Virus record (IMG/VR): IMGVR_UViG_3300020595_000082
Coordinates: 1 to 38,156 of that record
Source of the DNA: a virus
DNA: 38,156 nucleotides
Reading direction: 5' to 3' (one strand)
A program made the position numbers and the translations under genes. This document shows, one piece after another, positions 1 through 13,557 of the stretch. Numbering within the stretch: position 1 is the stretch's first letter; the number at the start of each line of letters is the position of its first letter. The notes beneath the pieces were generated by a model. That model ran no database searches, had not been told where the DNA came from, and was given only the letters and a program-made list of their open reading frames with translations.

Positions 1-2047
1 AAAAACTCCACAAGTCACCTTTTTTGATCGTACCACTTCTACCAGAACCAGCGACAAAGAAGTTTACGATATTCATATCTGGAACTCTTTTTCTCAATAG
101 CTCAAGCAACATATCGGTTGGGCCTTTCCACAAATCTTTTTTATTGGATTCAACTGATTTACCTGTAACAGAGTCAGTAATAACAGTAGTGCCACTAAAA
201 TAAGAAGACATATGTCCAATACCCATAACATCACCATCTTTAGTTTCATGTATATGATGTATATCATTCATACTATCTCCAGCACCATCAGTAAGAAAAA
301 CAGTGTGAAGTTTTTGAACACCTGTAGATTTTTTGTACTTAGGAAGAATATCCATTGCACAAATGATTGCATCATTTAATGGTGTTGACCCCAAACCAAA
401 ACCTTTAGGTTCTGAATATGGATAACCAACTTCATGCCAATCTTTAAAACTACCCCATCTTGAAGCATACATATTTAAATTATGCATCATAGTTTGGATT
501 TCATTCTTATTCATTTTACTTGAGAAAAATTGTAACAAGTTAACTCTTAACTTATACTCACCAGATTTTGGAGTTGTAATTTTACTATAATTATCTACAT
601 GAGCACCTAAAGAATTAAGAGTACCATAAGAATTACTAAATGCAAAAACTTCAAAAGGAATTTTTACTTGATTACAGAACCAAATAATATTGTATAATTG
701 GTTTAAAGTACCTTGAAGATTGTGAGCCATAGAACCAGACCAATCAAGGAATAAAACTAAACCATGATTAGTAGCGCCAGGCAAAGTAGTAATCTTTGCA
801 AACAGGTCATCATTATATTTGTAAGTATGTAGTTTACTCATGTCGAGTGAACCAGTTTTTGAACTAGAAGATCGAGCATATAAATCTGCAGCTTTCTTCA
901 TTTCAAATTCTTTAACCAAATACTGAACAATCTTTTTACTAGACTTTTTAGTTGTTTCTAATTCTGTTGCAGTATAATTAAACCATCTATTATCACGTTC
1001 TTTTTGTTTTGTAATTGATGTGTTCCATATTTCAAGTATTGTTTTATAAGAAACAATTACTTCTTTTGTATTTACTTTTGGAGTAAATGCATATTGTCTA
1101 TCTGATGCATTACCATCTAACATATTTTTAGTATTATTAGAAGACGCTTTATCGGTAGAAGCAGTAATAGGTGTACCAGAACTTTCTCCACCATCAGCTT
1201 GACTTTCTCCAGTACTCTCTTCAGACGAGCTATCGTCTGACTCTTCATCTGATTTTTCCGAAGAAGATGCAGAACCAACATCATTTGATTCTTCACCAGA
1301 CTCTTCTGAACTGGCAGGAGAAGAAGGAGTCGAACCCTCATTTTCAGATTTGGAATCTGTCGTGTTACCATTGTCACTATTCTCCTCTAGCTCCTCACCT
1401 TTATTTGAAGGCATAGGTGTGTTAGAAGGCATCGCACTAATATCCTCTGGTGATAGCATATTTTCTGATTGTAAACTTCTACCATCATCTTGTCCAAAAT
1501 CACTTTCTTTTTGATTTTGAACCATATATTCATAAAGTTCTTTTGCGAGTTCAAGTACATCATCTGGTGTAACAGTATTATTTGCTTTTTCTACCCAAAC
1601 TTGTTCTTCTGAAGAAAAAGGAACACCAACATGATGTTTATAATGAAGATTGATTCTGTCTATTAAATTGATTTCTGAAATATCTCTGTTCAAAGTTTCA
1701 AAGAAATTAGATTGAATAAGTTCTCTATAACCACGCCTAAAGACTTTAACTGAGCCAGGATATTTCTTTTGTGCAAGTTTTTCAATACGAACATCTTCTA
1801 GGACATTGACAAATGAAAACTCAATGTTTTCAGCTACAGCACGTTCTAATTGTTCTAAAGGAGTCCAAAGAGCATGACCTACCTCATGGATAGTCATTAG
1901 GTCTTGAATATCTTTACTCATCTCTTTCCAAATAGGAAGAGATAATGTACGATTTTTAACATCAAACATTGCAGTTGATTGTTTTCTATGAATCACATGG
2001 ATATCTTCTTCAGCAAGAAGTTTTGCGAGTGTCGATAAATCTTTCAT
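1..2047 (-). CDS. HExxH metallopeptidase-like / VWA (CobT-like) protein, C-terminus cut by window edge
   Basis: The reading frame is open from an ATG at 2047 to the left edge (682 codons, no stop), so the C-terminus is missing. Near the N-terminus is a zinc-protease-like HEVGH motif (residues 54-58). A Ser/Glu/Asp-rich low-complexity linker lies around residues 215-290. The C-terminal part is a von Willebrand A-like domain with a MIDAS motif DWSGS at 435-439 and a later LTDG segment. Proteins of this type in marine T4-like phages are annotated as CobT-like or peptidase, usually beside a CobS/MoxR-type AAA ATPase; that partner would lie left of the window. An RBS-like GAGGA lies about 10 nt before the ATG and a sigma70-like promoter lies just upstream. 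The substrate is unknown, and a genuine cobalt-chelatase role seems unlikely. The architecture is clear but the function is not. Confidence 0.8.
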   Translation of the reverse strand, partial: MKDLSTLAKLLAEEDIHVIHRKQSTAMFDVKNRTLSLPIWKEMSKDIQDLMTIHEVGHALWTPLEQLERAVAENIEFSFVNVLEDVRIEKLAQKKYPGSVKVFRRGYRELIQSNFFETLNRDISEINLIDRINLHYKHHVGVPFSSEEQVWVEKANNTVTPDDVLELAKELYEYMVQNQKESDFGQDDGRSLQSENMLSPEDISAMPSNTPMPSNKGEELEENSDNGNTTDSKSENEGSTPSSPASSEESGEESNDVGSASSSEKSDEESDDSSSEESTGESQADGGESSGTPITASTDKASSNNTKNMLDGNASDRQYAFTPKVNTKEVIVSYKTILEIWNTSITKQKERDNRWFNYTATELETTKKSSKKIVQYLVKEFEMKKAADLYARSSSSKTGSLDMSKLHTYKYNDDLFAKITTLPGATNHGLVLFLDWSGSMAHNLQGTLNQLYNIIWFCNQVKIPFEVFAFSNSYGTLNSLGAHVDNYSKITTPKSGEYKLRVNLLQFFSSKMNKNEIQTMMHNLNMYASRWGSFKDWHEVGYPYSEPKGFGLGSTPLNDAIICAMDILPKYKKSTGVQKLHTVFLTDGAGDSMNDIHHIHETKDGDVMGIGHMSSYFSGTTVITDSVTGKSVESNKKDLWKGPTDMLLELLRKRVPDMNIVNFFVAGSGRSGTIKKGDLWSF

Positions 2048-2080
2048 TAGTTTTTGTCCTCATCACTTGACTATACTTAT

Positions 2081-2154: not shown

Positions 2155-2967
2155 TTAGATCCAATTTTCTTTTGTTGCCGGCAATCTGCCAAGTGATTCG
2201 TTATACAACCATTCTGTAATTTTTTCTTGTCCTAATTTACTAGGGTGTACGTTCTCACTATTAATGAAGTATTTTTCTCTATCTGGGTCTAAATCATAAA
2301 GCTTGCTTCCAAAAGAGTATCCATCAAGTTGAGGGAACATTGGCCAACCTATAAATTTATCATTATTGATTTTATCAAGATATGGACTTTTAATTAAACT
2401 TTTACACATTTCTACTTCTAATACTTTTTTACTTGCAGGCATACCCATAACTTGCATATAAGGTATTTTCATATTTTCACAAGTATTTTGTGCAGAAAGA
2501 AATAAACGTAAAGATCGTTTCAACATAGATGATGGTGACAAACAACCATACTTGTTTAATACATTCGTGACCTCAATTTTATTTTCTCTTAGATCAGTAT
2601 TTCTATCAGTAGCATTAATGTTAACTTTGAACCAATCATAACTTCGTGTTACACCTGTTCGTTTTTCTACCTCAAACCCTATTCGCATAAATTCAGACCA
2701 CATGATAACGACAAGGCCTATATTTTTTTGATTTACTATTTCATCCATAAACATACTATGAATACCATCATTACCAAAACCACATTGAGCAAAATTAACT
2801 AGCTCCATATTAAGTTTCTTTGCCAGTAGTTCAGGCCAGAAAAGAAATGGATCTACTAAGTTACCACTATTATCATTCATATGTTGTTTTAGTATGGGAT
2901 CTTTTGTGGTCAGTTCTACATATTTTTTGTCAGAATAACTACAACCAAAAACTAGTAGTTTTTTCAT
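2155..2967 (-). CDS. SGNH/GDSL hydrolase-like protein
   Basis: The 270-residue protein has the layout of an SGNH hydrolase. A block I-like GCSYS motif at residues 8-12 follows a short beta strand, a block III-like GFGND lies at 63-67, and a C-terminal block V-like segment NVHPSKLGQ contains His241. The usual Asp of the DxxH motif is not obvious. The family includes esterases, lipases and carbohydrate deacetylases; substrate cannot be read from the sequence. The ATG at 2967 overlaps the stop of the upstream methyltransferase by one base (TAATG) and has an AAGGA ribosome site, so translation is probably coupled. It is the last gene of a likely modification cassette. There is no signal peptide, so it should act in the cytoplasm. 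Confidence 0.7.
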   Translation of the reverse strand: MKKLLVFGCSYSDKKYVELTTKDPILKQHMNDNSGNLVDPFLFWPELLAKKLNMELVNFAQCGFGNDGIHSMFMDEIVNQKNIGLVVIMWSEFMRIGFEVEKRTGVTRSYDWFKVNINATDRNTDLRENKIEVTNVLNKYGCLSPSSMLKRSLRLFLSAQNTCENMKIPYMQVMGMPASKKVLEVEMCKSLIKSPYLDKINNDKFIGWPMFPQLDGYSFGSKLYDLDPDREKYFINSENVHPSKLGQEKITEWLYNESLGRLPATKENWI

Positions 2968-3746
2968 TATATTTCCTTCTTTGCCATAAACAGAAAAAAT
3001 CCTGGCCAGTATTCATTATTCTTTAATTTTTCTAAAGCCATATTTTCATATTCTTCTTCTTCACCTCTAATAGATGTCCACATCAATTTCATATTGTTTT
3101 TTTCCAAAACCTCAGTTACTTCTTTCATGGTATGTGTAGTTTCATGTGGATGTAACACTTGATCACGAAACCAAGAACGCAAATGAGTTTCGTCTGTAAA
3201 TCTAGAATCCAGTTCACAATACCTAGCAAACTTCTCATCTTCATCTTTTATTTTAGAAAATTCATCTAAAAATGGTTTTCTTCCATACTTATGATATAGT
3301 CCAATAAATACAGTAGAACCCTTGGACATAGAGTCACATATTTTGTCTAGCCCCTCTAAGCAACGTCCTGTGTGGTGCAAAACACCCAAAGAAACGACTA
3401 AATCCGTTTTATTGTTTATTTCATATTCAAACAGGTCTGCAACTTGAAAGTCTACTTTATTACCAATATACTTACCAACTAGTTTTGCTCTTTCGATTGC
3501 AACAGGATTAAAGTCAATTGCAGTAATATCACAACTGTTATGATATGCAATACGATTTGATAACCACCCAGCTCCACAACCGATTTCTAATATTTTTACT
3601 TTTGGTTTTAAAAATGGTGCCAATACATCATAAGTGGTTTTATTCTCTAAAATACTTAATGCATGATCTTCAACGCTGTCACGATAATTAAATGGAAGTT
3701 CTTTATAGAACTCCAATACTGTTTCACTAATGGGGATAGACATCAT
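2967..3746 (-). CDS. class I SAM-dependent methyltransferase
   Basis: A Rossmann-fold methyltransferase of about 259 residues. Motif I is EIGCGAGW near residue 55, followed by an acidic strand end (AIDFNP) and a motif IV-like VVSLGVLHH. Such proteins transfer methyl groups from S-adenosylmethionine to small molecules, sugars or proteins; no nucleic-acid recognition motif is visible. The frame can begin at a GTG (3749) or at ATG codons at 3746 or 3743. I chose 3746, but no strong ribosome site decides it. It lies between a carbamoyltransferase and an SGNH hydrolase-like gene and ends in a TAATG overlap with the latter. A 65-nt gap separates it from the carbamoyltransferase. Confidence 0.8.
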   Translation of the reverse strand: MMSIPISETVLEFYKELPFNYRDSVEDHALSILENKTTYDVLAPFLKPKVKILEIGCGAGWLSNRIAYHNSCDITAIDFNPVAIERAKLVGKYIGNKVDFQVADLFEYEINNKTDLVVSLGVLHHTGRCLEGLDKICDSMSKGSTVFIGLYHKYGRKPFLDEFSKIKDEDEKFARYCELDSRFTDETHLRSWFRDQVLHPHETTHTMKEVTEVLEKNNMKLMWTSIRGEEEEYENMALEKLKNNEYWPGFFLFMAKKEI

Positions 3747-3814
3747 CACCGTATTCTTTCTTATCTTTCTTTTTCCAAGTTGAAAGATATAATTTAAAGT
3801 ATAGTTTTAATCTT

Positions 3815-5155
3815 CTAAAAAACAGCGACATTATATTTCTCCATAAAATTCTTTGCATCATTCCAATCATTTACGATTGGTTGTCCCTTAATATTTAGAG
3901 AAGTATTTAATAACATAGGACAACCTGTCTCATCATACCACTCCTCTAATATTGGTCTAATGATTGATTGACAATCTTTCTCAACAAGTTGAACCCTTGC
4001 AGTACCATCAACGTGTGTGACAGAACTATAATCATGTTTTGCTTTTGCAACAAATTGCATATACCGATTCATTGGGCCGTCAAAGTATTCGTCTGCATAT
4101 TCTTCTAATATTGCTGGTGCAAATGGCCTAAACTTTTGTCTTCGTTTAATGTCGTTTACAGTATCTTTTATGTCGTATCTGGGATCACCAAGAAGTGATC
4201 TGTTTCCTAATGCTCTAGGCCCAAACTCAGCTGAGCCATTAGCAACACCACACACTTTATTTTTTAAAAGTTCTTTTACAACATCTTTTGGATTTATTGC
4301 ATTTAGAATAAAAAATCCAAGATATGGATCAATCCATTTTAATTTCTTCTTATTGACCAGTGCGGCCGCTCCGATTGCATTACCAGCATCGCCTGGCGAA
4401 GGAAGTATCCAAATGTTTTTATCTTTAATTAAACTATTTGCTTTACAGTTTAATGCACAACCACCCATGATGATTAGGTTTTTCTTTGGACACATTGCCA
4501 CAAGTTCAAGAAGTTTCTTTTCATATAAAGCTTGTACAGAAGCAGCAAGGTCTTCATTCTTTGCAGATGGGAATATATTACCAACACCAAAGTGATTGTT
4601 TTGTTGTAAAAGATATTCCATATCATATATTGGTTCACCATATGCAGCCATACCCATAGTAATATATTCATCTTCGTTTGGTTTCAAACCAATACGTTGT
4701 GTGATTGCAGAATAAAGAAGACCAAGTGAATATGGATATTTCCATGATTTAATCTTTTTCATATTGTCCCATATAGAGACTGTATCCCATTCTCCAATCG
4801 AATCAATTACTAGAATATTACAATCATCAAAAGGTGCTGTGTAATAACCAGCAGCTGCATGAGACTGATGGTGATGAAAAGACTTATCATATTCTATAGT
4901 AGTGTTATCATTTTTCCAAGGTTTACCCGAATACAATCTTCTAGTATTTTTTAACCATCTTTTTTCATGAAAGGCTACTGTACGATTGTTTATCATACCT
5001 TTCATATTACAAACAGATAATTGTTCATTATGTAACCACTTATCATTTTTGATTTTAGAATATCTCTCGGAATGAGATGCGTGAATTATATTTCTATTTT
5101 TAATTTTACAAATAGCTGCATCATGGAAACCTTCAGAAAATCCTACAACAGTCAT
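3815..5155 (-). CDS. NodU/CmcH-type carbamoyltransferase
   Basis: At 446 residues this is shorter than the usual 550-600 of the family, but both halves are recognisable. The N-terminal Kae1-like half has FSEGFHDAA at the start, the His-rich HHHQSHAAAG, VIDSIGEWD and GGCALNCKAN. The C-terminal carbamoyl-phosphate-binding half has EFGPRALGNRSLLGDPR and the late MLLNTSLNIKGQPI block. Family members (NodU, TobZ, CmcH) transfer carbamoyl from carbamoyl phosphate, with an adenylate intermediate, to a hydroxyl of a sugar or antibiotic. Start ATG at 5155 overlaps the upstream methylase stop by one base (TAATG) with a GGGAGA ribosome site. The acceptor here is unknown; phage DNA, virion glycan or a host metabolite are all possible. 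Confidence 0.9.
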   Translation of the reverse strand: MTVVGFSEGFHDAAICKIKNRNIIHASHSERYSKIKNDKWLHNEQLSVCNMKGMINNRTVAFHEKRWLKNTRRLYSGKPWKNDNTTIEYDKSFHHHQSHAAAGYYTAPFDDCNILVIDSIGEWDTVSIWDNMKKIKSWKYPYSLGLLYSAITQRIGLKPNEDEYITMGMAAYGEPIYDMEYLLQQNNHFGVGNIFPSAKNEDLAASVQALYEKKLLELVAMCPKKNLIIMGGCALNCKANSLIKDKNIWILPSPGDAGNAIGAAALVNKKKLKWIDPYLGFFILNAINPKDVVKELLKNKVCGVANGSAEFGPRALGNRSLLGDPRYDIKDTVNDIKRRQKFRPFAPAILEEYADEYFDGPMNRYMQFVAKAKHDYSSVTHVDGTARVQLVEKDCQSIIRPILEEWYDETGCPMLLNTSLNIKGQPIVNDWNDAKNFMEKYNVAVF

Positions 5156-5688
5156 TATATTCTCCCATAAAATTTAGTGTTCTTTGATTGTATTCTATCA
5201 AACAGATACCAACAACAATTATCTTTACCAACACTTTTACTATTTTCTATCCACTTTACACGACCAATACTTACAATTTTTTTCAACATTCCCATATAAG
5301 GAATACTTTGTTTAGTATGTATCCAATCTGCATCAAACAATAACCAAGTAGGTCTAAAAGCAGTAAAATATTCTATCATTGGATGCAATAAACTTCTGTC
5401 CCATGGCGGATTTGTAATTATATAATCTGCCTCAAATAAGTCGTCTATGTTTATTTCTCTAAAATGTCTAGTTAAAATATTATTTGTTTGTGGCTCCAAA
5501 TCACTAGCCCAAGAACACCAACCATCTGTCATTGTTTCAATACAATTTACTAAAGCACCATCGCCTGCACAAGGTTCTGCAAAAGCAAATTGTTTTTTAG
5601 GTAAATGTTGAATTAAGGGCTCAACAGCTGTACTTGGCGTTGGATAAAAGTCACGTTCAACTCTCTGAAAGTCACTACGTTTTCCCAT
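5155..5688 (-). CDS. DNA N6-adenine methyltransferase-like protein
   Basis: A 177-residue protein with an FYPTP segment near residue 14, a SAM-binding AEPCAGDG at 37-44 and the amino-methyltransferase motif NPPW at 93-96. This combination is typical of adenine-N6 or glutamine-N5 methylases. The small size leaves almost no room for a target-recognition domain, so sequence specificity is unclear and non-DNA substrates remain possible. The ATG at 5688 overlaps the gp46 stop by one base (TAATG), and the gene overlaps the next gene in the same way. It is thus translationally tied to both recombination and carbamoyltransferase genes. It may protect phage DNA or be a step in a base modification. Confidence 0.75.
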   Translation of the reverse strand: MGKRSDFQRVERDFYPTPSTAVEPLIQHLPKKQFAFAEPCAGDGALVNCIETMTDGWCSWASDLEPQTNNILTRHFREINIDDLFEADYIITNPPWDRSLLHPMIEYFTAFRPTWLLFDADWIHTKQSIPYMGMLKKIVSIGRVKWIENSKSVGKDNCCWYLFDRIQSKNTKFYGRI

Positions 5689-7397
5689 TATACTGCCACA
5701 TGACTAAAATTCCTTATCTTTTCAAATCTAATTGTGTCTCTAAATTTGTCAGCAAGTGCATCTTGTTTATGACTAATTACAAACACATTTTCTCCACTCA
5801 GTGTATTCAGTATCTTTAGAAACTCATCTGTTCCAGTACCATCTAATGAACTATCAAATATCTCATCTAACATAAGTAGATTACAATTTGTAGAGTTCTT
5901 CATCTTTGCAATGGCTCTCCAAGTAAAGAGTAGTGCAAGGTCAATTCGCATTTTCTCTCCCTCACTAAATGATGCATAAGAAAACTCATCACGATATCGT
6001 GACTTGATAGTTTCCTCAAAGTTTTCATCTAATGTAAAGTTTACATAGAACTCCATTGATGTAAGATACTTGTTAATCAGTTTATTCATAATCGGTAGAT
6101 ATTGTTTAATAATCTTTGTTTTGATACCAGTATCTTGTAACATAGTCCTTGCAGCTTCTGCATAAACTTTGTCTTCTCTTAGTTTGTTTTTTTGTTGTTC
6201 ATAAAGTAGAGCTTCAGCTTTAAGTTCGTCTAGTTTATCTGTATCTGAAGCAACAGCACCATCGGTTTGAAATTGTTTTATTTCTGTTTTTAATTGTGTA
6301 TTAAACTTTTCTAGTTCTAGAATTGATGAATCAATTTTTGCAATGTCTACTTGCCCTGTTCTGATATCATCAGTAATTGTTTTGATTTCTTTTTTTCTAT
6401 TACTTACTTTGTCTAGTTCAATCTTTAATTGTTTCATACCATCTTGAAGATCAGACGCATCTTTTTCTTTGTGTAAAATCATAGAAGATTTAAATTCTTC
6501 ATCAATGTGTTGTTCACACGTTGGACAATCTGTATTGTCCTCAAAGAATTTTATCATGTGAGTGTGTGTCTTATGTTTTTCTACAAGAGTCGATTGTATA
6601 TCTTTTAGTTTTGTACTTTTAGTTTCTACTGATACTTTGTCATCAATAGAAGTAAGAGCATTTGTATTACTTAGTTGTAAAACATCTCGTTCTTTTTTTC
6701 TACTAAAAACTTCTTCTTCATTGTTGTCTATAAGTTCTTGTTTTTGTTGAATAATTTTTTCTTTATTTTCTTTTAAGTCCAATATATGATTTTCTTGAAA
6801 GCTTACTTTTTCAGTAGTTAAATCATATTTATATTCAATATCTCTAATGTCATCAATAATAGTTTTAATCTTTTGTTTTAGTATCATATTCATAGTAGAG
6901 AATATTTGAATATCTAAAATCTCTTCTACAACTTCTCTACGGTGTCTAGCCTTTAATTGCATAAAAGGTACAAATGTTGAACTACCAAGAATAACCACTT
7001 GTGTGAAAGAACGATAGTTTAGTTTAAGAATCTGTTGTTCTAATATCTTTTGATAATCACGAGCATTTGCTTCTAAGTTTAACATATTACCATTTTGATA
7101 AATTTCAAACTTATTTGGTTTAATGGAACGTATCACTTTGTAGTATACTGTTCCAATCTCAAATTCAACCTCAACTGTTGCAGCTGAGTTGTTAATAGAG
7201 TTTATCATTTGGTTTTTGCTGATATTACGAAATGGTTTACCAAACAAACCAAAACACAATGCATCAAGAACTGTGGATTTACCAGCACCATTCTCACCAA
7301 TAATAAGTGTAGTAGGACTATTGTCTAATTGTATTTCAGTAAAGTTGTTGCCTGTGGAAAGAAAGTTTTTCCACCTTACATATTTAAAATTAATCAT
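5688..7397 (-). CDS. 46: gp46 recombination endonuclease subunit (Rad50-like)
   Basis: At 569 residues it is close to T4 gp46 (560). Walker A GENGAGKS is at 34-41, a long coiled-coil region carries a zinc hook CPTC at 291-294, the ABC signature FSEGEKMR is at 477-484 and Walker B LLMLDEIFD is at 507-515. With gp47 it forms the Mre11-Rad50-type complex that resects DNA ends to load UvsX for recombination-dependent replication. The start ATG overlaps the gp47 stop by four bases (ATGA), which matches the need for stoichiometric synthesis. It is followed without a gap by the modification cassette. Confidence 0.96.
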   Translation of the reverse strand: MINFKYVRWKNFLSTGNNFTEIQLDNSPTTLIIGENGAGKSTVLDALCFGLFGKPFRNISKNQMINSINNSAATVEVEFEIGTVYYKVIRSIKPNKFEIYQNGNMLNLEANARDYQKILEQQILKLNYRSFTQVVILGSSTFVPFMQLKARHRREVVEEILDIQIFSTMNMILKQKIKTIIDDIRDIEYKYDLTTEKVSFQENHILDLKENKEKIIQQKQELIDNNEEEVFSRKKERDVLQLSNTNALTSIDDKVSVETKSTKLKDIQSTLVEKHKTHTHMIKFFEDNTDCPTCEQHIDEEFKSSMILHKEKDASDLQDGMKQLKIELDKVSNRKKEIKTITDDIRTGQVDIAKIDSSILELEKFNTQLKTEIKQFQTDGAVASDTDKLDELKAEALLYEQQKNKLREDKVYAEAARTMLQDTGIKTKIIKQYLPIMNKLINKYLTSMEFYVNFTLDENFEETIKSRYRDEFSYASFSEGEKMRIDLALLFTWRAIAKMKNSTNCNLLMLDEIFDSSLDGTGTDEFLKILNTLSGENVFVISHKQDALADKFRDTIRFEKIRNFSHVAV

Positions 7398-10999: not shown

Positions 11000-12471
11000 A
11001 ATTTTATCCTATCTATTTTGTAATTAAATTGCTCGTCATTGTATATATTTATTCTTTCGTAAAAGTGTCTTAGTGTAAAATTTCTTCTGGACTTATAGGT
11101 AAGATCATCAGATATATCAAAAAGTTTTACATTATCTTTATTTTTACTTTGTCTTAGTCCTCGGCCTATACTTTGCAAAACTCGTATTCTACTTTTAGAT
11201 GGACTTGCAAAAACAATATTATGTATGTTACGAATATTTATGCCTGTAGAAAAAGTACCATATGAAGCTATAATAATTGCATCCTTTTCATTTTCTGTAA
11301 TTGCACGAATCTTTTCTCTTGTTTCTGTATCAGTGCCACCATATACAAAGAATACTTTTCTGTCAAACTTTTTTATTTCATTATACAGTAAAACTCCATG
11401 TTTGTCAACCAATTGAAATAAACATAATGTATTTCCTGTAATATTACTACATAGCTTCTTTATAAACTCGTTTCTTTTTGCATGAGAAACAATGTAGTTT
11501 ATTTCTTCTGCATATGCATATGTTCGTATTCTTTTAGCTTCTTCATCTGAGTGTTTTAAAACAATACAATTAATATCTAGTTTTGCAAGAGTATCATTAT
11601 CCATTAATTCTTTTGTAGTAATAATTTTCTTGACTTTTCCAAATAAACCTTCTAGAACTAAACGATGTGTCTGTGTACCATCAAGTGTTCCTGTCAAACC
11701 AAATCTATACTTTATATCTCTACTTCTAGTCATAATATCAGTTAAAGATTTTGCTTTAAATAGATGAGCTTCATCACCGATAAGACAACCATATTGTGCA
11801 AAGTATTGACTATGAAGTTTATACACTGATTGCCATGTTGAGATTACAATTGGTTTCTTAGAACCTTTATCACGGCCTGCATATACTCTATGAATAAACT
11901 CATCTTTCCAACCATAATCAATAAAGTCAGAATACATTTGTTCAACTAGTGATGTAGTAGGAACTAATATTAATGTTTTCAGTCCCATCATATGATAATA
12001 ACGGACTAATGTATATATTATTAGAGATTTACCCGATGCAGTAGGAGAAACAAGAAGAGCCCTATTTGTTGATATAGCATGATGGATTGCATCAATTTGA
12101 TAATCACGAAATTCAATTGGTTTTCCTTGCGAGGTGGGACGTAAGGAGGTTGCGAAATCTCCAACGCTCTCACGAACAACATTCCTGACATCTTCTACTC
12201 CTTTATCTATTATATAGTCAATAGAGTTTCTTAAACAAAATTCTTTTATATAAGGTAGCAACCCCACATATATTCTACCATTATGTGGAGAGAATAAACG
12301 TATCTTACCGTCCCACATTTTATTACGATATTGTGGCATAAACTTAGCGCCAGGCACTTCAAAGGTAAAATAGTCTGAAAGTTCTCTTTCTAAACTATCG
12401 TCAACTTCTAATTGTAGATATACTTCGTTGACTTTAGATATTTGCATTTTGTAAAGACTTTGGTTCACCAT
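10996..12471 (-). CDS. uvsW: UvsW DNA/RNA helicase
   Basis: A superfamily 2 helicase of 491 residues (T4 UvsW about 500). After an N-terminal DNA-binding domain (a KMWDGKIRLF segment matches T4) come Walker A SPTASGKS at 142-149, GDEAH at 232-236, a GLTGT motif III and QSIGRGLRQ motif VI. The C-terminal DEQFNYKIDRIKL resembles the end of T4 UvsW. It unwinds R-loops and branched DNA and switches origin-dependent to recombination-dependent replication. The frame extends to a TTG at 12486, but I place the start at the ATG at 12471, which has GAGG 7 nt upstream; ATG 12447 is a further candidate. It overlaps the upstream oxygenase by 38 nt. Confidence 0.95.
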   Translation of the reverse strand: MVNQSLYKMQISKVNEVYLQLEVDDSLERELSDYFTFEVPGAKFMPQYRNKMWDGKIRLFSPHNGRIYVGLLPYIKEFCLRNSIDYIIDKGVEDVRNVVRESVGDFATSLRPTSQGKPIEFRDYQIDAIHHAISTNRALLVSPTASGKSLIIYTLVRYYHMMGLKTLILVPTTSLVEQMYSDFIDYGWKDEFIHRVYAGRDKGSKKPIVISTWQSVYKLHSQYFAQYGCLIGDEAHLFKAKSLTDIMTRSRDIKYRFGLTGTLDGTQTHRLVLEGLFGKVKKIITTKELMDNDTLAKLDINCIVLKHSDEEAKRIRTYAYAEEINYIVSHAKRNEFIKKLCSNITGNTLCLFQLVDKHGVLLYNEIKKFDRKVFFVYGGTDTETREKIRAITENEKDAIIIASYGTFSTGINIRNIHNIVFASPSKSRIRVLQSIGRGLRQSKNKDNVKLFDISDDLTYKSRRNFTLRHFYERINIYNDEQFNYKIDRIKL

Positions 12472-13030
12472 AATCGCCTCTAGCAATTATATTCCATGAT
12501 ATACTTATTCTGTCATCTTTATTATTCGGCACCCAATGTTGTAACCAAGAAGGAAACAATAATCCTACACCCTTTACTGAATTAAACTGAATCATATTAG
12601 AGTTGTCCCAATTATATTTTTTTCTTGGAGATAGTATGTGAGCTTGAGCTCTTGGATCAAAAAACTGAATTGGTGCAGTATCTTTGGATGCTTTTAAATA
12701 ATATACTCCTGACATAAGATTGTTTGAATGAGTGTGTGGTGCGTGTGTTTCACCACCATGCATTGCATTTGCCCACATACCTGTAATTTCTAAACTATCG
12801 TATATATATTCTAAGTCTTTTAAGTATTTGTCAGTTGCATTTAGAACAGTATCTTTAAATGATTTAAATTCTGACAACAAATGAATATCATCTTCGGTCT
12901 GGCTAAAAATATCAGACCTCTTAAATTTTACAAGATCCTCACAAACAGAAGGCATTGCATATTTAAATTCTCCAATGACAGTTGGAAAACATTTATATTT
13001 TTTTACATCAACCAACAAACCATACTCCAC
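12434..13030 (-). CDS. 2OG-Fe(II) oxygenase-like protein (type 2OG-FeII_Oxy_5), GTG start
   Basis: A 198-residue double-stranded beta-helix protein. Candidate iron ligands are His99/His101 in the HTHSN motif and His165 in PSWLQHWVPNN, and Arg174 in DDRISISWN would bind 2-oxoglutarate. This layout is that of the putative oxygenases common in cyanophages. No ATG gives this N-terminus; the start is a GTG at 13030 with AAAGGTGA just upstream. It overlaps the previous oxygenase by 28 nt. The substrate is unknown. It forms a pair with the next oxygenase between UvsY and UvsW. Confidence 0.8.
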   Translation of the reverse strand: MEYGLLVDVKKYKCFPTVIGEFKYAMPSVCEDLVKFKRSDIFSQTEDDIHLLSEFKSFKDTVLNATDKYLKDLEYIYDSLEITGMWANAMHGGETHAPHTHSNNLMSGVYYLKASKDTAPIQFFDPRAQAHILSPRKKYNWDNSNMIQFNSVKGVGLLFPSWLQHWVPNNKDDRISISWNIIARGDYGEPKSLQNANI

Positions 13031-13557
13031 CTATCACCTTTAGTAACTTTTAAAACTTCATGGGGATACATAAAGTTTGAGGGAAATATAATTGCAGAAC
13101 CTTTTTCTGGTTCAAATTGTTTATTTGCAATAATAATTTCACCGCCTTCATAGTCATCATTTAAAAATAACAATATTGTAGCTTGAGGAAATCCATATTG
13201 TTGGCCATGACTATGATGAATGTTATCAACATGATTTGACATAAAACCACCGACTCCGTATCTGTTAATACGAAAATCTGTTAATCGACTTACATTAAAC
13301 AATGGAAACTCTTCTTTGTATTTTTCTATAGTCTTTTCAAATGATATTTTAACATCTGCATAAAGTTCATCATTACTTTTTATCCATGCGTCATCCATTA
13401 ACACACGATCTGTTTTAACTACTTTACCACTATCGTGTGTTGCATAGCCTGATGGTTTAAATTCAAACTGTTTATTAGTTAATCTCCAACATAATTTATC
13501 ATCAACAATACCTTTTTGGTATTGTATATAATCTGTTACTTTATGGTCTTTTTTCAT
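13003..13557 (-). CDS. 2OG-Fe(II) oxygenase (prolyl 4-hydroxylase-like)
   Basis: A 184-residue protein with the full facial triad of the superfamily: HVD (His109, Asp111) and His166 in YPHEV, then Arg176 in GDRWS for 2-oxoglutarate. FLNDDYEGGE and IIFPSNFMYPHEV are typical of the P4Hc/PKHD-type group. It would hydroxylate a protein or other substrate with 2-oxoglutarate and oxygen. The ATG shares one base with the uvsY stop (TGATG), so translation is coupled to UvsY. The substrate cannot be inferred. Confidence 0.88.
   Translation of the reverse strand: MKKDHKVTDYIQYQKGIVDDKLCWRLTNKQFEFKPSGYATHDSGKVVKTDRVLMDDAWIKSNDELYADVKISFEKTIEKYKEEFPLFNVSRLTDFRINRYGVGGFMSNHVDNIHHSHGQQYGFPQATILLFLNDDYEGGEIIIANKQFEPEKGSAIIFPSNFMYPHEVLKVTKGDRWSMVCWLM

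Follow-up and report, generated by a model that had tools for sequence, protein, structure and literature searches.

A removable carbamoyltransferase cassette in a marine T4-like phage, with a conserved carbamoyltransferase-SGNH core

Carbamoyltransferases of ocean phages have repeatedly been annotated as auxiliary genes without a known substrate. What do these enzymes modify, and together with which partners? A fixed partner narrows the search, and the question is raised by the IMG/VR virus record IMGVR_UViG_3300020595_000082, whose 38,156 bases we analyzed as a whole (hereafter 'the window'); the record is a fragment, and the genome of its own phage is incomplete. On its minus strand, transcription runs from gp46 through genes for a DNA-adenine-methylase-like protein (DMT), an O-carbamoyltransferase (CT), a class I methyltransferase (MT2) and an SGNH-fold protein (SGNH), and then to a gene for a VWA-domain protein. 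A preliminary description of this DNA took the four middle genes for a single modification cassette that might decorate phage DNA, a virion glycan or a host surface molecule.

We find that the removable unit is CT-MT2-SGNH, without DMT, that CT and SGNH form its conserved functional core, and that MT2 is optional. The pair is probably a portable kit for chemical decoration rather than for DNA modification; its acceptor would most likely be a glycan, and we put the probability of this reading as a whole at about 55%. The predicted features, in amino acids (aa) where proteins are concerned, are the following.

3815..5155, minus strand: CT, 446-aa O-carbamoyltransferase (NodU/CmcH/TobZ family, PHROG 1601), core of the pair; from Pfam, PHROG, model fold and conserved residues
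2155..2967, minus strand: SGNH-fold protein, 270 aa, CT-partner family, MT2-associated subclade; from model fold, S10/H241/R95, subclade and weak DUF6071 similarity
2967..3749, minus strand: MT2, class I S-adenosylmethionine (SAM)-dependent methyltransferase, 260 aa, GTG start, optional cassette member; from Pfam and the motif LEIGCGAG
5155..5688, minus strand: DMT, 177-aa DNA N6-adenine-methylase-like protein, gp46 neighbor, outside the cassette; from PHROG 799 and the motifs EPCAGDG and NPPW
5688..7397, minus strand: gp46 (SbcC-like), bounds the variable site on the left; from PHROG 77 (2.1e-169)
1..2048, minus strand: VWA-domain protein, truncated where the contig ends, bounds the variable site on the right; from an open frame and motif reading
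2109-2081, minus strand: promoter-like site before the VWA gene, TTGACA-17-TAGCAT; -35/-10-like, similar sites not enriched over shuffles

The removable unit and its core

When viral contigs were scanned for DMT, 80 loci came up. CT was present at only one of them and missing from the other 79, and gp46 lay directly upstream of DMT in 41 of the 76 loci with a called upstream gene. The VWA gene comes after the cassette or, where the cassette is absent, straight after DMT; at 14 loci DMT runs directly into it, in the order gp46-DMT-VWA. Four contigs (L168-L171) closely match the window and share a cassette deletion scar. Their DMT proteins are 98% identical to that of the window and their VWA genes 88-93%, and L170 agrees with the window at 93% across gp46-DMT. 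The scar, at about 6130-6260 of L170, consists of the DMT stop with its TAATG, a stretch of some 100 bp out of mid-MT2 and roughly the final 48 bp of SGNH. Since remnants of MT2 and SGNH lie there beside an intact DMT, the CT-MT2-SGNH cassette was present in the ancestor and was then deleted, with DMT kept. A four-gene modification module is ruled out by the DMT loci and by this scar: DMT is inherited separately. The earlier interpretation survives insofar as CT, MT2 and SGNH form a cassette and CT and SGNH stay linked in relatives, and fails in counting DMT as a member.

To follow the other genes, we used the best 80 of 278 matches to CT in viral contigs, at 64-93% identity. These loci are metagenomic fragments, in which open reading frames (ORFs) were called mechanically and then clustered; dereplication at 90% identity left 40 with enough flank. 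SGNH is the next gene after CT in 31 of the 40, and lies within three genes in 38. When a gene was drawn at random per locus, 4.7 were expected as next gene and 31 was reached in 0 of 20,000 trials, in a test that treats loci as independent and ignores shared ancestry. Within 5 kb of CT, DMT was found at 3 and MT2 at 5 of the 40 loci; of the linkage between all four families that was looked for in relatives, it is the CT-SGNH part that is conserved. A second, deeper scan, seeded with the CT of AG-345-D19 (47% identical to that of the window), gave 22 dereplicated loci with flanks; SGNH was within three genes of CT in 18 and directly downstream in 12. The pair occurs in at least three genomic contexts, namely between gp46 and the VWA gene, after tail-fiber-type genes, and near DNA polymerase or uvsX. 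Two phages with a lone SGNH at the gp46 site have a same-clade CT elsewhere, in the tail region (64-65% identical). Viral scans with the window SGNH alone and with MT2 alone gave one near-identical contig each, single-sequence patterns being narrow; an alignment of SGNH sequences offered no segment conserved enough for a scan. From the linkage we infer a joint action of CT and SGNH on a common substrate.

A CT tree rooted on a single 5-hydroxymethylcytosine (5hmC) enzyme joins the window CT with 44 CTs of phages and 7 of cells in one group (support 1.0), and the other bacterial CTs fall outside it. Beyond this group, at most 3 of about 70 loci have an SGNH of the family no farther than 4 kb from CT, and their scores are weak. 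Streptomyces samsunensis and Plantactinospora are among the sources of the nearest cellular CTs. Two of these nearest matches (L087, L088) are contigs of metagenome-assembled genomes, and L088 seems phage-like by gene content.

Families, folds and active sites

CT matches both domains of the NodU-type carbamoyltransferases over their curated cut-offs (Pfam Carbam_trans_C, 3.8e-48; Carbam_trans_N, 1.6e-36), as well as PHROG 1601 (7e-81). Its model, with a predicted local distance difference test score (pLDDT) of 86, resembles TobZ, GdmN, NovN and VtdB (Foldseek TMq 0.78-0.84), and residues H95, H96, H99, D118, D256, E310 and R314 are invariant among 46 phage and 79 bacterial sequences. Domains, residues and the modeled two-domain fold place it among the NodU/CmcH/TobZ O-carbamoyltransferases and, because residues and fold are conserved, it is predicted to be catalytically competent.

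For SGNH, there was no family match above a curated cut-off, and its structure was predicted because a sequence search of solved structures gave nothing meaningful. The AlphaFold model (pLDDT 91) has an SGNH fold, with TesA as the best match (Z 15.6, root-mean-square deviation 3.0, 172 residues; Foldseek E 1e-5); the crocagin hydrolase CgnD is also among the Foldseek matches (E 5e-5), though not the best. The block I serine (S10) is kept in 73 of 73 family members and the block V histidine (H241) in 72. The block III asparagine (GxND) is absent, with W[ST]x3R and an invariant R95 in its place, and the block V aspartate is shifted to two residues before the histidine in 65 of 73, this position being an asparagine (N239) in the window. 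As modeled, the protein is an SGNH-fold variant and not a canonical SGNH hydrolase; hydrolase activity is plausible but not assured, since S10 and H241 are kept but the asparagine block is replaced and the aspartate shifted. Against Pfam DUF6071 (PF19547) the window SGNH scores 16.6 bits, below the 27-bit cut-off; 20 of 54 SGNH relatives match this family at E up to 0.01 (best 3.5e-8), and the W[ST]x3R pattern is common to SGNH and the Streptomyces DUF6071 proteins. In the tree, the window SGNH falls in a subclade whose members follow MT2 (support 1.0) and which branches from within the CT-adjacent SGNHs (0.85). One locus (L014) carries both forms, in the order CT-SGNHa-MT2-SGNHb; SGNHa may thus have been lost from the window.

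MT2 exceeds the cut-offs of several Pfam families, matches Methyltransf_31 (3.9e-14) and NodS (3.2e-6), and with its LEIGCGAG motif is classed as a class I SAM methyltransferase. DMT has no match in Pfam; its match to the phage DNA-methyltransferase family PHROG 799 (1.5e-27), together with EPCAGDG and NPPW, makes it a putative DNA adenine methyltransferase. The four assignments first made from the sequence alone (adenine-methylase-like, NodU-type carbamoyltransferase, SAM methyltransferase, SGNH hydrolase-like) have held up, the last of them by fold. In five loci (L009, L013, L014, L023, L073) the slot directly upstream of CT is filled by different DNA methylases (DMT, MTA70-like or a larger DMT2) or by radical SAM genes, and has the look of a place where methylases are exchanged.

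All four genes are intact minus-strand ORFs, and the 1-nt TAATG overlaps described at gp46/DMT, DMT/CT and MT2/SGNH are there; the CT/MT2 junction is a 65-nt gap. Overlaps of 4 nt also occur at gp46/gp47 and gp47/gp55 and, because short overlaps run throughout this region, the TAATG junctions are not diagnostic of a cassette. A terminator and a promoter had been proposed after the last gene. No terminator-like site was found 3' of SGNH, where folding is no better than in shuffles (z 0.31); the promoter-like site exists, is of a kind no commoner than in shuffles, and is also present downstream of the deletion scar in L170. What stands of the original observation is therefore the four genes and their three TAATG junctions, and what falls is the terminator and the four-gene module. 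Composition gives no support for a recent foreign origin, the guanine-plus-cytosine (GC) content and third-position GC of the cassette equaling those of the neighboring replication genes. These are T4-like (gp46, gp47, gp55 and uvsX, by PHROG matches), and T4-like structural genes follow further along the window (by reading). At 12434-13557, the window also has two overlapping 2-oxoglutarate (2OG)-Fe(II) oxygenase genes (PF13759, PF13640) adjoining uvsW.

The acceptor and the rival explanations

As expected from the TobZ/GdmN family, CT would form carbamoyl-AMP from carbamoyl phosphate and ATP, and would move the carbamoyl group onto a hydroxyl of a non-DNA acceptor, be it a glycan, a peptide or a small molecule. 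SGNH would then use its Ser-His pair to process this acceptor, as an esterase, a deprotecting enzyme or an acyl carrier, and MT2 would methylate it in the lineage of the window.

Phage DNA, left open as an acceptor by the preliminary description, deserves attention because a phage-type carbamoyltransferase acts on 5hmC; the positions W408, G421 and R423 of TobZ discriminate between the two kinds of enzyme (eLife 2021, PMC8670742). On this account CT would carbamoylate 5-hydroxymethyl pyrimidines and DMT would add methyl groups, and indeed DMT adjoins CT in the window, and in further relatives CT stands next to different DNA methylases; elsewhere, however, DMT is unlinked to CT. With TobZ numbers placed by motif alignment, the three positions are V304, G317 and R319 in the window, where the DNA enzyme has I, C and T. 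G317 and R319 keep the non-DNA state, as do K337, R343 and D383, and V304 departs from the canonical tryptophan, so that one marker in three differs. The thymidylate-synthase/dCMP-hydroxymethylase family (PF00303) is missing from all 12 CT-phage records searched, three complete genomes and a 148-kb contig included, the window itself being a fragment; in a control, the same search was positive in 9 of 14 cellular genomes. A Tet/JBP-type dioxygenase was found in only one CT-phage record, C48C1 (L248; 50309-50755 of OQ984149.1, E 3.3e-19), a T4-like phage with a more distant CT. Because the marker residues are mostly absent and no thymidylate-synthase-family gene was found in the CT-phage records searched, DNA is disfavored: it is an unlikely acceptor, and a cassette modifying phage DNA seems to us very improbable.

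The genes around the pair point elsewhere. Among the 40 CT loci, neighbors include radical SAM/SPASM-type genes (19 loci), GT8-like genes (13) and UDP-sugar dehydrogenases (5). Relatives carry aminotransferase genes beside the pair, which often adjoins tail-fiber or baseplate genes; deeper-sample loci adjoin gp25-like, gp6-like baseplate and sulfotransferase-like genes, and in the two phages with a lone SGNH, CT adjoins glycosyltransferase-like and Asp/Asn-hydroxylase genes. The names sulfotransferase, amidinotransferase, gp25 and gp6 in relatives were given by reading, not by family search. Because of the glycosyltransferase-like, UDP-sugar dehydrogenase, aminotransferase, sulfotransferase-like and tail-fiber or baseplate neighbors, a glycan of the virion or of the host surface is the most likely acceptor, favored at low confidence over a peptide or small molecule.

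Several observations weigh against this reading as a whole. Radical SAM/SPASM-type genes, present at about half of the loci, fit peptide or small-molecule tailoring equally well; the GT8-like call rests on one weak PHROG match; in cells, the nearest pairs of CT and SGNH belong to clusters of natural-product type and not to glycan loci; the equivalent of TobZ W408 is not a tryptophan, and C48C1 carries its dioxygenase; finally, the window SGNH has lost the conserved aspartate two residues before H241, and its subclade goes with MT2, not directly with CT. Some of these fit a pathway in which CT O-carbamoylates a hydroxyl that a 2OG dioxygenase has made on a peptide or small molecule, SGNH cleaves or processes the intermediate and a methyltransferase finishes the product, perhaps a small effector or a modified side chain of a virion protein. 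A 2OG oxygenase gene (PF13759) indeed lies between MT2 and SGNH in one locus (L007), and tail-region genes of the Asp/Asn-hydroxylase type are known from relatives. DUF6071 occurs in 5 of the 296 Streptomyces genomes searched, 4 of the 5 with a CT nearby, and CT directly precedes SGNH in three of the four pairs (L255, L257, L258, L089). One pair (L255) adjoins genes for a nonribosomal peptide synthetase, a P450 and an ABC transporter; those of L089/L256 adjoin radical SAM, aminotransferase, oxygenase-like and 5-enolpyruvylshikimate-3-phosphate-synthase-like genes; that of S. samsunensis adjoins radical SAM and aminotransferase genes; and a same-clade CT of Plantactinospora (L090) adjoins a class III lanthipeptide synthetase. 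Crocagin biosynthesis, discussed below, uses a matching set of chemistries (PMC10070186). On the other side, the phage loci, where no systematic search for such genes was made, showed neither a precursor peptide nor an assembly-line gene, sugar-type genes are also frequent, and CgnD is one of many SGNH-fold matches. We regard such tailoring as possible but not probable; the more specific proposal, that phages share with these Streptomyces clusters a CT and a non-canonical SGNH that tailor a hydroxylated peptide or small molecule during infection, is more doubtful. If true, it would mean that a phage makes a specialized metabolite-like or peptide modification while it infects.

Two further explanations would uncouple CT from SGNH. 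The gp46-gp25 region is a hot spot in cyanophages (Sullivan et al. 2010, PMC3037559), and cassettes are lost and swapped at the gp46 site, so that adjacency might merely record insertion of cargo at one place, with no joint function. This does explain DMT and, in part, MT2; a single hot spot cannot explain the pair, because CT and SGNH stay together across several genomic contexts and in Streptomyces, and we consider it improbable. SGNH might also be a virion-associated esterase that trims a host surface sugar and is chemically unrelated to CT: 4 of 54 family members weakly match a tail-fiber PHROG, some pairs adjoin tail genes, and phage tail proteins can reportedly carry SGNH domains (PMC11058221). 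Yet the protein is a stand-alone 270 aa lacking the block III asparagine, and its tight link is to CT, Streptomyces included, not to tail genes, which makes such an esterase highly improbable.

Three other kinds of genes were seen near the pair. In many CT loci, as at 7002-7679 of L069, the region upstream of CT encodes a radical SAM core, about 225 aa long, followed by a separate ORF of about 110 aa, which looks like a split-off SPASM-type half. An amidinotransferase-like protein is encoded beside CT and SGNH at 6122-7366 of L265 and 2585-3904 of L005 (30% identical to each other); that of L265 has no Pfam match, and a sulfotransferase-like gene is present in L005 as well. Tripartite-tricarboxylate-transporter-like genes, TctC-like periplasmic and TctA/B-like membrane ones by reading, lie downstream of the tail/CT cluster in a marine T4-like phage of 148 kb and in a relative (L270, 999-3552, minus strand; L271, 14904-17446, plus strand); they are possible auxiliary metabolic genes.

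Comparison with known systems

According to the preliminary description, no known pathway has exactly this set of genes, a statement that needs qualifying in view of two systems. In crocagin biosynthesis, a dioxygenase, the esterase-like hydrolase CgnD, the carbamoyltransferase CgnI and the methyltransferase CgnL act on one product (PMC10070186), as the cassette and its relatives might; the likeness of CgnC-CgnD-CgnI-CgnL is one of chemistries, and that pathway has in addition a peptide precursor and CgnB/CgnE. The PNP-1 cluster of Pantoea needs both an SGNH protein (pnp1B) and a carbamoyltransferase (pnp1D) for its product (PMC4010436); it shares these two with the window, by description, but its other genes differ.

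Among single enzymes, TobZ, GdmN, NovN and VtdB have in common with the window CT both domains, the HHxxH and aspartate residues, the GPRALGNR motif and a near full-length fold. The solved structures of TobZ type are, however, of 566-700 aa against 446, W408 of TobZ is replaced by valine, and the window CT is a phage protein whose gene has that of an SGNH partner nearby. The phage 5hmC carbamoyltransferase (PMC8670742) is likewise a phage-borne member of the superfamily, but has C and T in place of G317 and R319, and goes with genes of the thymidylate-synthase family, of which none was found in the searched relatives of the window. Closer in setting are the 'Nol-like carbamoyltransferases' of cyanophages and pelagiphages (PHROG 1601; PMC3037559), which share the annotated family and the T4-like marine phages; the window CT has about 30% identity with most of them, and in the tree it falls with CTs from Streptomyces and from uncultured phages of the sea, the CTs of HTVC008M and Mosig lying elsewhere. 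The pelagiphage Mosig has both a CT, outside the clade of the window, and an SGNH, two genes apart. Their pairing with SGNH is not described in the literature that we found; nor did we find a paper on DUF6071, or one on a carbamoyltransferase with marine phage and radical SAM.

The closest parallel is the CT-DUF6071 pair of Streptomyces, whose CTs belong to the same clade, are 42-45% identical to that of the window, and accompany proteins with the same GCS and W[ST]x3R motifs. It differs in lying in bacterial natural-product-type clusters, and the window SGNH matches DUF6071 weakly. The pair gives this Pfam family a genomic association, CT and SGNH can be expressed and tested together, and the Streptomyces clusters are cultivable systems in which to find the acceptor.

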